From contig DASXEW010000001.1 of the NCBI GenBank assembly GCA_036489885.1, forward strand, positions 124,001-188,000: DNA of 64,000 bases. Reading direction: 5' to 3'. Positions 34,083 through 43,029 of this stretch are shown one piece after another. The position numbers were made by a program, and so were the translations under genes. Below the pieces are notes generated by a model. The model saw only the letters and a list, made by a program, of their open reading frames with translations. It made no database searches and was not told the DNA's origin. Source of the DNA: Candidatus Baltobacteraceae bacterium (GTDB lineage Bacteria; Vulcanimicrobiota; Vulcanimicrobiia; Vulcanimicrobiales; Vulcanimicrobiaceae). Positions within the stretch are counted from its first letter, which is position 1. The number at the start of each line of letters is the position of its first letter.

Positions 34083-36509
34083 GTGGCCGACGACAGCGGC
34101 CGAATCGTGCACGTCAACTCCCGGTGGGTCGCCTATACGGGACGCTCAATCGAGGGTTTAGCGGGCGTCTCTCTTGGCGTGCTCTCCGGTATCATTCATC
34201 CCGACGACCTCGAGGCGGCGTCGGAGCGCTGGAAGCATTCGCTCGAAACCGGCGAGAAATTCGAGATGCAATACCGGCTTCGAAGCGCGGAAGATGGAAG
34301 CTACCGTTGGTTCTTGACGCGTGCCGCTCGTAGGCTCGACTCGAATGGCGAGAGCGCGCATTGGATCAGCGTGGCGACGGATATCAACGAGCAAGTTCGC
34401 ACAGGCGAAGGTTCGCGGTTTCTTTCTGAAGTCGCAAACGTGCTCGCATCCTCGCTCGACCAGGAGCAGGTTGTCGCCGCCTTTGCGCGCGTCGCGGCGC
34501 AGCGTTTCAGCGACGGATGCGTTGTTCTGTTCGCCGAGGGCGGCGAGTTGCGAATCGGCGCCGTCGCGCACAATGACCCCGCACTTATGGCGGTGATGCG
34601 CAAGGGCGAGATCAATCGCTTCTTGCACGACGGGCTTGTCGATCGTGTCATCGAAACGCGAGAACCGCTCCGCGGCGCTTCCGTCGACGCAGAACTGGGT
34701 TCGCGAGCGTCGATCGCCGTTCCGATGATCGTCGCGCAACGTCTGATCGGAACGTTGATTTTCATCTCGTCGAGCGACCGCGAGTTCGACGCGGCGGACA
34801 TAGACATTGCAATGGCCGGAGCGCGGCAACTCGCCGTGGCGCTCGAAAACGTACGCTCTTTCGAACGTTTCCGGCTCTTGGCGCGCGAGACCGACATTCT
34901 CTTCGCAAGCGGCGAAGCCAAGACGAAGCTGCGCAGAGTGCTGGACGTGATCGTCGAGGAGGTTGCCGACTGGGCGGCCATCTATGTCTTGGGTGGCCCC
35001 AGCTCGATTCGACTCGAGGAGCTGGCGCACCGGAATCCGCAAGTCGGCGCAGTCCTTTCCGAAATGCGCGGGCAGCGAATATTTAACCGCGAGACCGAAC
35101 GCAACTTCTACGAGACGCTCAATAGACACCGTACGATGCTGCGCACCAATACCGGGATCGAACGGCTGCGAGAAACCCTGCAGCCCTACATTCTACCGGT
35201 TTTCGCGCAAGCGACGCCGCAGTCGATGCTGACCGTTCCGCTTTTTACAACCGACTCAGTTTACGGCGCGCTTACGATTTATTCGACCAGCCGTAACTTC
35301 GGCGATCATGAAGTGCAGCTGATGGAAGAAGTAGCGCGACGCGTGGCGCTCGCGTTCGAGCATGAAGAAAGCGTCGAGCGCGAGCGCCGGCTCACGAAAA
35401 CGCTCCAAGAGGTTACGCTTCCGGCGCAATTGCCGAACGTGCCGGGTGCCGAGGTAAGTACCGTCTACGTTGCCGCGACGGCCAGCGACGCACAGGTCGG
35501 CGGCGATTGGTACGACATCTTCGAGCTTCCGGACGGACGGTTCTTGTTCTCTATGGGCGACGTCACGGGACGCGGTCTTCAGGCCTCGGCGATCATGGGC
35601 AAGCTGCGCCACACGATCAACGTCGTCGGCATGTACGAAAGCGATCCCGGCAAGATTCTGGATGCGGCCGAGAGTGTTGTGGTTCAACGCTATCCCGACG
35701 CGATTGCGACGGCGTTCGTTGCGGTGTACGATCGGCGCTCGCGGCAAGTCGTCGCAGCTAATGCGGGACATCCGTATCCGCTGCTGCGCTTAAACGACGG
35801 TTCGATCGAGCCGCTGCAGGTCGACGGAATGCCGATCGGACTGCGGAAGCTTGCATCCTCTCAACCCGCGCGTTACCGGGCAATGCACGACGTAGCGGCA
35901 ATTGCGTTTTATACCGACGGAGTGGTCGAAGCGAACCGCGACATCGTGGCCGGCGAAGAGGTACTTATTCGTGCCTTCGGCTCAGGCGCCGTACCATTTG
36001 TACGCAGCCCGGCGAACCTGATCGCATCGACGTGCCTGCCGGCACAGGTGCAAGACGATGCAGCGATCTTCGTCGTCACGTTTCCGCATACGACGTGGCG
36101 CTTTCATGCCGACCATGCGCGTGCCGCTAGCGACGCGCGGCATGCTTTTATCGATCATCTTCGCGCCGAAGCAACGGATGCGAGTGAGATCGATGCCGCC
36201 GAAGTCATCTTCGGCGAGCTGATCGCAAACGTCGTCCGCCACGCGCCCGGCCCGATCGACATTGCGCTCGAATGGATCGATGGCTTTGCGGTCCTGCACG
36301 TAACCGATCGCGGCAACGGCTTTCGATTTCAATCGCGCCGCCGCGCCGATATATTTATGGAAGCCGGCCGCGGCTTGTGGCTCGTCGAGCAGTTCGGCGG
36401 AACGGTCGACGTCGAGCGTATCGCAGGTTACGGCACGCACGTGCGCGTTGCGCTCCCGGTCGTGCGCGCCGCCGATACGGCGTTCGAACGCTCGCAAGCT
36501 CTAGCTTAA
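34083..36509 (+). CDS. PAS-GAF-GAF-SpoIIE phosphatase with C-terminal HATPase (RsbU-like switch)
   Basis: An 808-residue multidomain protein. PAS (about 1-105, ADDSGRIVHVNSRWVAYTG), two GAF domains (about 110-265 and 270-440), a PP2C/SpoIIE phosphatase (about 455-660, GGDWYDIFELPDG and MGDVTGRG) and an anti-sigma-type HATPase (about 675-800, FGELIANVVRHAP and DRGNGF). In the family such proteins control partner switching of anti-sigma factors. The GTG start trims the first PAS strand; the frame is open back to 34020 (FDVAEATPNLVSVADD reads naturally) but has no ATG/GTG/TTG. The true start, possibly non-standard, may be earlier. Confidence 0.85.
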   Translation: MADDSGRIVHVNSRWVAYTGRSIEGLAGVSLGVLSGIIHPDDLEAASERWKHSLETGEKFEMQYRLRSAEDGSYRWFLTRAARRLDSNGESAHWISVATDINEQVRTGEGSRFLSEVANVLASSLDQEQVVAAFARVAAQRFSDGCVVLFAEGGELRIGAVAHNDPALMAVMRKGEINRFLHDGLVDRVIETREPLRGASVDAELGSRASIAVPMIVAQRLIGTLIFISSSDREFDAADIDIAMAGARQLAVALENVRSFERFRLLARETDILFASGEAKTKLRRVLDVIVEEVADWAAIYVLGGPSSIRLEELAHRNPQVGAVLSEMRGQRIFNRETERNFYETLNRHRTMLRTNTGIERLRETLQPYILPVFAQATPQSMLTVPLFTTDSVYGALTIYSTSRNFGDHEVQLMEEVARRVALAFEHEESVERERRLTKTLQEVTLPAQLPNVPGAEVSTVYVAATASDAQVGGDWYDIFELPDGRFLFSMGDVTGRGLQASAIMGKLRHTINVVGMYESDPGKILDAAESVVVQRYPDAIATAFVAVYDRRSRQVVAANAGHPYPLLRLNDGSIEPLQVDGMPIGLRKLASSQPARYRAMHDVAAIAFYTDGVVEANRDIVAGEEVLIRAFGSGAVPFVRSPANLIASTCLPAQVQDDAAIFVVTFPHTTWRFHADHARAASDARHAFIDHLRAEATDASEIDAAEVIFGELIANVVRHAPGPIDIALEWIDGFAVLHVTDRGNGFRFQSRRRADIFMEAGRGLWLVEQFGGTVDVERIAGYGTHVRVALPVVRAADTAFERSQALA

Positions 36510-39389: not shown

Positions 39390-41525
39390 CTGAGCGACCT
39401 ACCGCCGTTTCCACCTGAATTCCGCTTCGGCGTTGCCACGGCGGATCATCAGTGTGAAGCGTATACGGGTGAAGACGACATTCGCGACACGTGGGAGCGC
39501 GTTCGCGGTCTGACGGCGCGCGGCAAAGCCACCGATTTTTGGAACCGGTATAAAGAGGATGTCGATCTTGCGCGTGGGCTCGGTTGCGGCGCATTTCGTC
39601 TCTCGCTTTCATGGGCACGACTCGAACCGCAAGCGGGTACGTGGGATGATGCAGCCTTCGCGCACTATCGCGACGTGCTGCAGTATATGCGCGACGCCGG
39701 GATGACGACGATCGTCACGCTGCACCATAACTCGTGGCCGATCCACATCCAAGCTGCGGGGAACGGCGCCGGTTTGCTCGATCCGGCGTTTCCGGATCGC
39801 CTCGCAGCGTACGCAACGCAGGTCGTGCAACGTCTTGGGGACCTGATCGACTACTACGTTACGATCAACGAGCCCAACCAGCTCGTGTACGGATTCATCA
39901 AGCTCTGGTGCATGCGTGCTTACGCGATGCCGCCGGGCATGGAGCCGTTCGCGACCGAGACGGAACAGATGGAAGCGGTCATCAAGCTGATCCCAAATCT
40001 CTTTCGCGCACATAACCGTGCGCGTGCCGCGATTCACAAGGAGCGTCCGCAGGCGCGCGTTGGAACGAATCCGCTCGTTCTCGGCTTGCCGCAGTGGTTT
40101 CAGGCCCTCGTCGATCGTGCCGCCGTCAACCTTCGCACGCCCGACGACCTCATTCGACAAGCGAAGCGTTTCTCGCAAGTGCCGATCCTCGACTCCGGCT
40201 CGGTTGATATCTCGATCGCACAAATCACGATCACGCAGCAGCGTATGGATCGCGTGCTGTTTTCGGAGCCGTATTTCGCTGCCAATCTCTGTACGCTGCA
40301 CGAGAGCGCCAAGGTGCCGCCCATCGATTCGAGCACGTTTGCCGGCAGCGTCGGCGTTGCCGCGGACGGTGCGCCCGCCGAACAGTTCCAAACGTACTTC
40401 CCGCAGGCCTCGATGCACGAATTCGATGACCTCGACACGGCCGTCGCGTCGCTTCGCCAAGGACACGTCGATCTCGTGTTCGACGACGATGTGTTTCTCG
40501 AGCCTTACGCGCACGGCACGCTTACTAGGAGCGCGGTTCGAGGACACGCTCAGGATTTTGCGGTGGCGATTCCGTTTGGGAGCCGTTCGTTGCTGAACGC
40601 CGTCGATCTGGCGCTGCGCGATGCCAAGGAATCTATGCCGAATGCACCGCACACAAACAACCGTAAGACGGTCGCACACATCGGACGCACCTCGATCGCT
40701 CCGCAGCACGTCCCCGATCTCGATAGGTCGCTGCGTGCGATTCGCCGGCGTGGTGTCTTGCGCGTCGGAATTCGGCCCGGAGTTTCAACGCTTTGCACGC
40801 GCGGAGAAAATGGCGCGTACGAGGGTCTCGAGCCGGATCTCGCCCGAAAGATTGCGGCGCGCATCTTCGGCGCAAAACCCGGCAGAGTCGATTTCGTACC
40901 CTTGGAGGGCGATCGCCGGCTCGATGCAACGCGCTCCTGGCTGCGGCGTTTTGACGGGTTGCGTAAGACGATCTCGATGTTCGCCACGATTCTCGGAACG
41001 AATTGGTGGAATTTGGGGATGGCCGGCCGCCTGGCGGAGTTTCTGTGTCCGCCTGAATGCGTCGGGACGCTCGACTACATAGGGCTCGACTATTATTGGG
41101 GCGCGCCTTCCCTCTTCAAGTTCAGTCGTTTGGTGTCCGCGGCCGAATGCAGGTATGCGAGCGCACCGGTTTGGCCGGGCGTTCTCGGTCAGATTCTGCG
41201 CGAGCAGCACAAGCAGTTTCCCGGCAAGCCGATCATCATCGTCGAGAACGGCTGCGTTACGAGCGCAGACAACGTAGCGCGCGCCGACTACATTGCGAAT
41301 CATCTTCGCGAAGTTCAGAAGGCGCTGGCTACGGGACTGCCGGTCGAAGCTTATCTGTGCTGGAGCATCACCTCGAATCGCGAATGGGGATTGCCTTTCG
41401 ACAACAATAGCGATTTTGGGCTCTACCACGTCGATCTCGATCACGATCCGGACTTGAGACGCGTCGCGACGCCCGCCAGCACGCGTTTCGCCCAGATTAT
41501 TGCGTCACGCACGGCAGATGGATAG
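39390..41525 (+). CDS. GH1 glycosidase interrupted by a circularly permuted SBP_bac_3 domain
   Basis: A 711-residue single open frame with three parts. Residues 1 to about 262 are the first half of a GH1 TIM barrel (FRFGVATADHQCEAYTG, acid/base Glu161 in TINEPNQL). Residues about 263-517 (40176-40940) are an amino-acid-type solute-binding domain in swapped order: the C-terminal part (VDISIAQITITQQRMDRVLF, VGVAADGAPAEQF) comes first, then a linker, then the N-terminal part (RRRGVLRVGIRPGV, YEGLEPDLARKIAARI). Residues about 518-711 finish GH1 (LDYIGLDYYWG, nucleophile Glu619 in IIVENGC, YLCWSITSNREWGL). The GH1 halves together have normal length (about 455). No signal peptide. The start must be CTG 39390, or 95 residues including strand 1 are lost. 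Confidence 0.85.
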   Translation: MSDLPPFPPEFRFGVATADHQCEAYTGEDDIRDTWERVRGLTARGKATDFWNRYKEDVDLARGLGCGAFRLSLSWARLEPQAGTWDDAAFAHYRDVLQYMRDAGMTTIVTLHHNSWPIHIQAAGNGAGLLDPAFPDRLAAYATQVVQRLGDLIDYYVTINEPNQLVYGFIKLWCMRAYAMPPGMEPFATETEQMEAVIKLIPNLFRAHNRARAAIHKERPQARVGTNPLVLGLPQWFQALVDRAAVNLRTPDDLIRQAKRFSQVPILDSGSVDISIAQITITQQRMDRVLFSEPYFAANLCTLHESAKVPPIDSSTFAGSVGVAADGAPAEQFQTYFPQASMHEFDDLDTAVASLRQGHVDLVFDDDVFLEPYAHGTLTRSAVRGHAQDFAVAIPFGSRSLLNAVDLALRDAKESMPNAPHTNNRKTVAHIGRTSIAPQHVPDLDRSLRAIRRRGVLRVGIRPGVSTLCTRGENGAYEGLEPDLARKIAARIFGAKPGRVDFVPLEGDRRLDATRSWLRRFDGLRKTISMFATILGTNWWNLGMAGRLAEFLCPPECVGTLDYIGLDYYWGAPSLFKFSRLVSAAECRYASAPVWPGVLGQILREQHKQFPGKPIIIVENGCVTSADNVARADYIANHLREVQKALATGLPVEAYLCWSITSNREWGLPFDNNSDFGLYHVDLDHDPDLRRVATPASTRFAQIIASRTADG

Positions 41526-41535
41526 GATTGGGGGA

Positions 41536-43029
41536 ATGCACACGGCGCTGATCGGGATCGGTTCGAACCTCGGCGAGCGGCAAGGCAACATCTTGCAAGC
41601 GCTCCAGCGGCTGCGCACGCGCGTTCGTATCGACGCGGTCTCTTCGTTCTACGAGACCGTTCCCGTCGGCAATGTCGCCGGGCCAAAATTCCTCAACGCA
41701 GCCGCGCGGCTTACAACCGACCTGGATCCCGTCGCGCTCGAGTCGTTTTTTCGCGACGTCGAAACCGCGATCGCACGGCGTCACGAGCATCTCGCCGCGC
41801 GCGTAATCGACATCGACTTTCTCTACTACGGCGACTTGGTCGCCGATCTCGGCCGTTTCGAGCTGCCGCATCCGTATGTCGAGCAGCGTCCGTTCAATCT
41901 GATTCCGCTGGCGGAGATCGCGCCCGATTTCGTCGATCCGGTCCGCAAATCGACGCTCGCGAAAATGGCATCGCGCGTTCCACACGACGGCGTCGTGCGC
42001 AAACCTCGTGCGTTGCGCTTCGACGTCGACCGCCAAAGCCAAGAGCCGGAGCACCGTCTCGCGCTCAGCCGCGTCGGCGTTGCCAAGATCAAGCGCATCA
42101 TTCGCTTGACGATGCACGGACGTAAGGTTCCGTTGAACGCAGAGTTTTCGATGGTCGCCGATCTCGAGCCGAATCGCGCCGGCGTTCATATGTCACGCTT
42201 TTCGGAGCTGCTCGAAGAGGCGTTGCTCGAAGTGCTCGCGCGTGGCGAGCCGGCATCGACGGTTGAAGAAGTGGTCGAGCGCGTAGCACGCGAGATCGTC
42301 GTATCGCAGCACGCCCTGCGTGCCGACGTTCGGGTGCGCGCCGAGTTCGGTCTCGAACGCTGGACGCCGGTGAGCGGAAAGCGCACCGAAGAGACCTACG
42401 CGCTCGTGGGCGTCGCACACGCCGACCGTCAAGGAACGCGGCGTGCCGTCGGCGTCGAGGCCGAAGGTATGACGGCGTGCCCGTGCGCTCAGCTGATGGT
42501 TCGCGAGCATTCGCACCGCGAGCTGCTCGAAGCCGGCTTCACCGAGGCCGACGCAAATCGCGCACTGGATGCGCTTCCCGTCGCGACGCACAATCAGCGC
42601 GGAAAGGGTACGCTGTTGATTGGAACATCGTCGGATCGCGCCGCCGAGATTCGTGCCGAAGACCTCGTAGAGATCGTCGAGAACTCGATGTCGAGCGAGA
42701 CGTACGATCTGCTCAAGCGTCCCGATGAGTTTTTCGTCGTCAACAAGGCGCACCATCGCCCGCGCTTCGTCGAAGACGTGGTACGCGAGATCCTGGCGAG
42801 CACGCTCGCGATGTATGCGGACTTTCCGGACGAGACGTTCGTTGCCGCCACTCAGCTGAACTACGAATCAATTCACAAGCACGATGCATTCGCCGAAGCA
42901 TTTGGAACCTTCGGCGAATTCCGGCGCGAGCTGCGCGACAGCGTCTACGTCACGGATAAGACGGAGCTTGCGGCATGGCTTCGCGCAAGGTCGCAATTCG
43001 AGACCGCAGCGAGGGATGCGAGGAGATAA
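41536..43029 (+). CDS. folK-folE2: FolK-FolE2 fusion: HPPK plus GTP cyclohydrolase IB
   Basis: A 497-residue bifunctional folate enzyme. Residues about 1-165 are HPPK (HTALIGIGSNLGERQGN, YETVPVGN, RVIDIDFLYYGD supplying the two Mg Asp, HPYVEQRPFNLIPLAEI). Residues about 190-495 are FolE2 (VHMSRFSELLEEALL, GMTACPCAQ with catalytic Cys, LPVATHNQRGKGTL, HHRPRFVEDVV). This combines GTP cyclohydrolase I chemistry, the first folate step, with the pyrophosphokinase. Start ATG 41536 follows GGGGGAA. The 3' end overlaps the convergent protease gene by 80 bp. Confidence 0.9.
   Translation: MHTALIGIGSNLGERQGNILQALQRLRTRVRIDAVSSFYETVPVGNVAGPKFLNAAARLTTDLDPVALESFFRDVETAIARRHEHLAARVIDIDFLYYGDLVADLGRFELPHPYVEQRPFNLIPLAEIAPDFVDPVRKSTLAKMASRVPHDGVVRKPRALRFDVDRQSQEPEHRLALSRVGVAKIKRIIRLTMHGRKVPLNAEFSMVADLEPNRAGVHMSRFSELLEEALLEVLARGEPASTVEEVVERVAREIVVSQHALRADVRVRAEFGLERWTPVSGKRTEETYALVGVAHADRQGTRRAVGVEAEGMTACPCAQLMVREHSHRELLEAGFTEADANRALDALPVATHNQRGKGTLLIGTSSDRAAEIRAEDLVEIVENSMSSETYDLLKRPDEFFVVNKAHHRPRFVEDVVREILASTLAMYADFPDETFVAATQLNYESIHKHDAFAEAFGTFGEFRRELRDSVYVTDKTELAAWLRARSQFETAARDARR

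Follow-up and report, generated by a model that had tools for sequence, protein, structure and literature searches.

Architecture of the locus

We analysed a window of 64,000 nucleotides from contig DASXEW010000001.1 of a Candidatus Baltobacteraceae bacterium (assembly GCA_036489885.1, contig positions 124,001-188,000). On the forward strand of this window lies a reading frame of 711 residues without internal stops, which encodes a predicted glycoside hydrolase of family 1 (GH1) with a permuted solute-binding protein (SBP) domain of the SBP_bac_3 type inside it (Table 1). The frame directly abuts the TAG of the upstream met-zincin gene (DUF4953/DUF5117), and both genes are in the same frame. 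The start codon is probably the CTG at 39390, a placement based on the homologues, which begin with M a few residues upstream of the FRFGVATADHQ motif. By-eye inspection revealed no signal-peptide-like stretch in the window protein or its homologues, and the N-terminus begins at the GH1 domain. The gene two positions upstream (34083-36509, +) encodes a PAS-domain protein of 808 residues that carries an RsbA-like ATPase end and is probably a regulator of the PAS-GAF-phosphatase type. The downstream gene (41500-43029, +) fuses FolK (HPPK) to a FolE2/MptA-type GTP cyclohydrolase in a single frame of 503-509 residues, the second half of which scored 274 bits against the NCBIfam MptA cut-off of 220 and fell under the FolE2 cut-off.

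Table 1. Features of the GH1 gene with its internal permuted SBP domain (positions in the window)
Feature	Positions	Strand	Basis
Whole gene, GH1 with internal permuted SBP_bac_3	39390-41525	+	711 aa plus stop
GH1 N-terminal part, residues 6-250, barrel strands 1-5	39405-40139	+	PF00232 model 4-219; AlphaFold2 strands; alignment to uninterrupted GH1s
N160-E161 of NEPN, E161 presumed acid/base glutamate	39867-39872	+	Family alignment
SBP N-lobe second segment, residues 263-298, helix and strand to hinge 1	40176-40283	+	HMM positions 75 to about 109
T280, HisJ Ser72 position, putative ligand-site Thr	40227-40229	+	Family alignment
R285, HisJ Arg77 position, putative alpha-carboxylate ligand	40242-40244	+	Family alignment
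SBP C-lobe, residues 299-386, precisely missing in 8 homologues	40284-40547	+	Alignment, HMM, tree
D366, HisJ Asp161 position, putative alpha-amino ligand	40485-40487	+	Family alignment
SBP N-lobe C-terminal segment past hinge 2, residues 387-414	40548-40631	+	HMM positions about 201-228
Linker from native SBP C-terminus to native N-terminus, residues 415-443	40632-40718	+	Variable length and sequence; low pLDDT
SBP N-lobe native N-terminal segment, residues 444-512, last by permutation	40719-40925	+	HMM positions 9-77; AncQR 8-59
GH1 C-terminal part, residues 518-707, barrel strands 6-8	40941-41510	+	PF00232 model 337-449; AlphaFold2
E619 of ENG, presumed catalytic nucleophile	41244-41246	+	Family-wide invariant

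The flanks form a complete GH1 enzyme

The GH1 profile PF00232 matched the protein with an E-value of 4e-43 (148 bits; curated cut-off 22.6), split into two stretches that flank the SBP_bac_3 match. The sequence carries the Glu of NEP, the Glu of ENG and the Gln, His, Tyr, Trp, Glu and Trp of the -1 subsite, and ten positions make up an essentially invariant GH1 core (Q21, H113, N160, E161, D567, Y569, E619, W658, E665 and W666). E161 was kept in all rows covering the position, with L045 as the sole exception. A whole-protein AlphaFold2 model built with 16 family sequences (pLDDT 74.5, pTM 0.72) contained the (beta/alpha)8 barrel, and its 50 best Foldseek matches were all GH1 enzymes, the best of them to beta-glucosidases with an E-value of 4e-17 and a TMt of about 0.65. 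Collectively, these data indicate that the window protein is a GH1 member with a complete set of catalytic residues and a predicted glycosidase. It has the barrel and the catalytic Gln, His, Asn, two Glu, Tyr, Trp and Glu in common with GH1 beta-glucosidases (4r27, 8kap, 8in1; TIGR03356), but those enzymes have no insert and their motifs differ from the NREW and DYYW found here. The TIGR03356 score was 161.5 bits, far under the cut-off of 478.5. Ahead of the active-site Tyr pair an Asp replaces the usual Asn, and substrate preference is therefore not readable from the sequence.

The inserted SBP domain is circularly permuted

PF00497 (SBP_bac_3) matched in two stretches with an E-value of 2.8e-12 (47 bits; curated cut-off 26.4), and the insert alone scored 51.3 bits. 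We built a reference HMM from nine ordinary, unpermuted Eremiobacteria SBPs (loci L050-L058), and found that residues 263-414 correspond to model positions 75-228 (5.9e-21) while residues 444-512 correspond to positions 9-77 (1.6e-10). A phmmer search of the PDB gave the same order, with residues 264-414 of the protein (P0001; insert 13-163) aligned to AncQR 62-219 and residues 453-508 (insert 202-257) to AncQR 8-59. The swapped pair of HMM matches was present in all 32 two-lobed members of the family, none of which shows the normal order of N-lobe start, C-lobe and N-lobe end, and this excludes both chance and misassembly. Unpermuted, ordinary SBP_bac_3 genes are also present in the same genome. 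The linker at residues 415-443 had the lowest mean identity of all regions (0.35), in line with the joining of former SBP termini. In the homologue L026, about 65 extra residues (about residues 470-535) lie between the first N-lobe strand and the helix of the permuted domain.

AlphaFold modelling of the insert alone gave a pLDDT of 78.3 and a pTM of 0.74, and Foldseek matched this model to glutamine-, glutamate- and ancestral amino-acid-binding proteins with E-values of about 1e-9. Because Foldseek keeps sequence order, ordinary single SBPs aligned to about 155-165 of the 277 residues of the model, with sequential TM-scores of 0.42-0.47. Tandem SBPs (GlnPQ SBD1-SBD2, BvgS and EvgS; 6h30, 4q0c, 9ilw) aligned over 247-272 columns, which is nearly the full insert, as would be expected if it had been cut out of register from such a pair. 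SocA structures (6hqh, 5l9o), with deoxyfructosyl-glutamine or glucopine, were also among the matches.

The insert sits between GH1 barrel strands 5 and 6; in TIM barrels, such beta-to-alpha connections lie on the face where catalysis takes place. The permutation break lies in the N-lobe loop between the second strand (VDFVPL) and the next helix, at model positions 75-77, and the interlobe crossovers are at about residues 298/299 and 386/387. The initial annotation had described an SBP_bac_3 domain in swapped order within a GH1 enzyme whose flanks are complete and carry both catalytic glutamates, with the ends of the insert meeting at the interlobe crossover. The HMM and AncQR alignments agree on the swapped order, and the split PF00232 match with E161 and E619 bears out the complete enzyme. 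The crossover placement had to be abandoned, as the HMM ends fall within the N-lobe. Insertion of the C-lobe in the N-lobe is common to every SBP. The architecture is thus doubly nested, with the C-lobe within a permuted N-lobe and the N-lobe within the GH1 enzyme. Going by HisJ/LAO, which we take as the guide here, the break loop would border the ligand cleft.

The architecture is widespread in the class Eremiobacteria

Of 117 genomes sampled from this class of little-known soil bacteria, 52, in three families, contained homologues in the two-lobed form or a form without the C-lobe. The 32 two-lobed members are spread across the class with 47-66% identity to the window protein, and the homologue frames are uninterrupted in many independent assemblies. 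Many of these relatives are metagenome-assembled genomes, a general ground for caution, and an assembly or binning artefact could in principle create a swapped order; the recurrence of the same order in dozens of genomes rules out an assembly join, and we consider an artefact of either kind extremely improbable. The permuted order that the initial annotation reported is hence real.

Outside the class, the architecture was absent from 32 further sampled genomes of the phylum. Within the genus, the mate G001 (80% complete) showed no homologue. No copy of the architecture came from the plasmid collection, whose best matches were uninterrupted GH1s that aligned to 45-59% of the query, or from viral contigs. 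Scanning of genome contigs with exact 8-residue patterns returned only loci whose label was Candidatus Eremiobacterota/Eremiobacteria or simply 'bacterium'. No conserved neighbour or operon hinting at a ligand or substrate was found beyond close relatives, no gene recurs widely at the loci, and no partner ABC transporter recurs among the neighbours of the glycosidase. A divergently oriented short-chain dehydrogenase (SDR) gene adjoins the glycosidase in several loci (L033 4193-5020, L034 4217-4993 and relatives), overlapping the 5' end of the open frame.

Two loci showed irregularities of their own. In the two-lobed L023 (G044:C75), a stretch of about 70 residues that takes in the active-site Tyr (query 534-603) is missing from the GH1 part at a near-perfect junction, and the locus may represent a pseudogene, an assembly error or an altered enzyme. 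In L048 (4548-6959) the C-lobe region is out of frame though the frame stays open, probably through a frameshift pair or a sequencing error.

The C-lobe has been lost repeatedly

In eight homologues (L028, L029, L030, L031, L032, L042, L045 and L049), exactly the C-lobe is absent, cut at the hinge, whereas the N-lobe and the enzyme are retained. Their HMM matches cover positions of about 77-108, 203-230 and 10-78, with positions 109-202 missing, and more genomes of genus g18 showed the same gap in the search. The junctions vary by group (FSEPYAVAP.., FSKPY-ARGYAV, FSEPYEISTTGTPLAAAI, FSEPYYIERTNGDEELYAV and FSQPYENMYAV). When the lobe-less rows were placed on a tree computed from the GH1 parts alone, four changes were needed, and well-supported branches require at least three of these. 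Grouping the lobe-less members in one clade was rejected (AU p 5.5e-6; p 0.00045 on a smaller set). The C-lobe was therefore lost in at least three, most simply four, separate lineages. Two lobes are likely the ancestral state, since the most divergent members, L024 and L025, are two-lobed and closest to ordinary SBPs.

Where the C-lobe remains, it is the fastest-evolving folded part of the protein, at 2-4 times the rate of the enzyme (mean identity 0.41 versus 0.75). Its dN/dS in close pairs, with the frameshifted L048 left out, was mostly about 0.1-0.4 compared with about 0.03-0.2 for GH1, indicating purifying selection on the lobe. Clamping of a ligand is not expected once the C-lobe is gone, and repeated loss of this lobe with the N-lobe and enzyme kept counts against a universal sensor role.

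Residues of an amino-acid site are mostly kept in two-lobed members

The window protein carries the three residues of an alpha-amino-acid site, with Arg at HisJ position 77 (R285), Asp at 161 (D366) and Ser/Thr at 72 (T280); we presume their roles to be those known from HisJ/LAO. R285 was unchanged in every row covering the position. In the tree set, D366 was found in 26 of 29 two-lobed rows and T280 in 22 of 29, and T280 had changed in all eight lobe-less rows, most of which have also lost the 'HPG' loop. Adding the three two-lobed rows that lack D366, T280 was retained in 0 of 11 rows without D366 or without the C-lobe, which is what a single ligand site served by both residues would predict. 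The direction of this coupling agrees with such a site, but it was not significant, with 3-5 independent events only.

The position of HisJ Asp11, which binds the side chain, holds His in most two-lobed members and Arg in the window protein; in lobe-less rows it is non-His except in L028 and L030, with L045 unread. The position of the stacking Tyr14 holds Val. Because of these replacements, the ligand cannot be deduced from known SBPs. Together, the profile and fold matches and the conserved site indicate that the inserted domain is an amino-acid-type SBP, which may bind such a ligand. Like GlnBP (1wdn), Glu-SBP (5eyf), AncQR (4zv1) and TmArgBP, it has the SBP fold and the Arg/Asp/Thr site; those proteins are secreted, free-standing and unpermuted, unlike the inserted domain. 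Single-lobe forms of TmArgBP have been engineered in the laboratory; here the loss of a lobe is natural.

A proposed ligand-gated glycosidase and its alternatives

Based on these results, we propose a natural GH1 beta-glycosidase that would be tuned by an amino-acid-like ligand and whose sensor has repeatedly decayed, a reading to which we give a probability of roughly 45%. The initial annotation had likewise suggested that this could be a natural allosteric glycosidase under small-molecule control, an interpretation that our results support in part. The enzyme would be a cytoplasmic family 1 beta-glycosidase with the permuted SBP inserted in its beta5-beta6 region, most simply in a single event that predates the radiation of the Eremiobacteria members sampled. 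An out-of-register cut of a tandem SBP pair is the probable source of the permutation. At both ends of the insert the chain would pass to the enzyme from the N-lobe, which would leave the C-lobe as a free lid. On binding of an amino-acid-like ligand between the lobes, the lid would close and tighten the N-lobe loop that bears the two GH1 junctions; this may alter the order or opening of neighbouring active-site loops and turn activity up or down. In lineages no longer needing control, the lid would have been deleted at the hinge, and the N-lobe would stay because it is now part of the fold of the enzyme. The invariant R285, the mostly kept D366 and T280, the purifying selection on the C-lobe and the multiple lid losses suggest such a switch, as do the precedents of MltF and of a heme-modulated GH1 ancestor described below, whereas the dispensability of the fast-evolving C-lobe in several lineages and the want of a conserved neighbour naming ligand or substrate speak against it. 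That these proteins form a class-wide family of ligand-gated GH1 enzymes, in which excision of one lobe at the hinge repeatedly made the switch constitutive, is plausible, though we hold it with less confidence.

Two other accounts of the insert are the strongest rivals. The insert may be mainly structural, with an N-lobe that gives form to the entrance of the active site or to an oligomer interface, and with a C-lobe that is a decaying relic without ligand control. This would fit the presence of the N-lobe in all members, the loss of the C-lobe in up to four lineages and its fast evolution, but a relic would hardly be expected to remain under purifying selection or to retain, in two-lobed members, an unchanging Arg along with the Asp and Thr of most rows; the changes at T280 and the 'HPG' loop in lobe-less members look instead as if a working cleft had been freed from selection. 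We regard a structural role as less probable than a switch, yet a serious contender. Alternatively, the SBP domain could act in substrate selection as a binding module without a switch, holding the amino-acid (or peptide- or opine-like) part of a glycosyl-amino-acid while the GH1 part cleaves the sugar. The position of the insertion after barrel strand 5 in the secondary structure of the AlphaFold2 model, a beta-to-alpha connection and thus presumably on the catalytic side of the barrel, and the matches to SocA, an SBP of sugar-amino-acid conjugates, point this way. However, the catalytic residues are kept in lobe-less members and no recurring neighbour genes for such substrates were found, making substrate selection unlikely.

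Comparison with known systems and implications

A natural glycan-cleaving enzyme under the control of an SBP-type domain is already known in the lytic transglycosylase MltF, which carries such a regulatory domain at its N-terminus and is switched on by muropeptides (PMC10746161). The window protein resembles MltF in fusing an SBP-type domain, which in MltF senses a small cell-wall fragment, to a predicted glycan-cleaving enzyme. In MltF, however, the domains stand end to end, the SBP is unpermuted and N-terminal to a lysozyme-like lytic transglycosylase, and the protein is periplasmic; here a permuted SBP lies inside a GH1 barrel, and no signal peptide was seen. A reconstructed GH1 ancestor (6z1h/6z1m) has flexible or disordered residues 227-334, and heme binding raises its activity (PMC7810902). 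From the alignments, the insertion appears to fall within this stretch, so that small-molecule modulation would occur in the same beta5-beta6 stretch in both proteins, but the ancestor is a reconstruction that binds heme directly in the barrel without an added domain.

Engineered switches likewise couple a periplasmic-binding-protein fold to an output protein by insertion. As the initial annotation had pointed out, engineers use the same layout: a reporter in which permuted GltI interrupts a fluorescent protein that is itself not permuted (PMC6335823) has the topology of the window protein, but is laboratory-made. The switch XynA-XBP271 (PMC4896006), also laboratory-made, has the reverse nesting, with the enzyme inside the binding protein.

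GH1, SBP_bac_3, circular permutation, control of enzymes by SBPs and engineered insertion of permuted SBPs are each already known singly. In the open-licence literature searched we found no description of a natural fusion of GH1 with a permuted SBP, of its class-wide conservation or of repeated excision of one lobe. Domain insertion combined with circular permutation is a main engineering route to ligand-gated proteins. If the proposed switch is true, this family would be an ancient instance of that design which arose in nature and is diversifying to this day, and the occurrence of one enzyme in one-lobed and two-lobed forms across related genera would provide a built-in comparative experiment.
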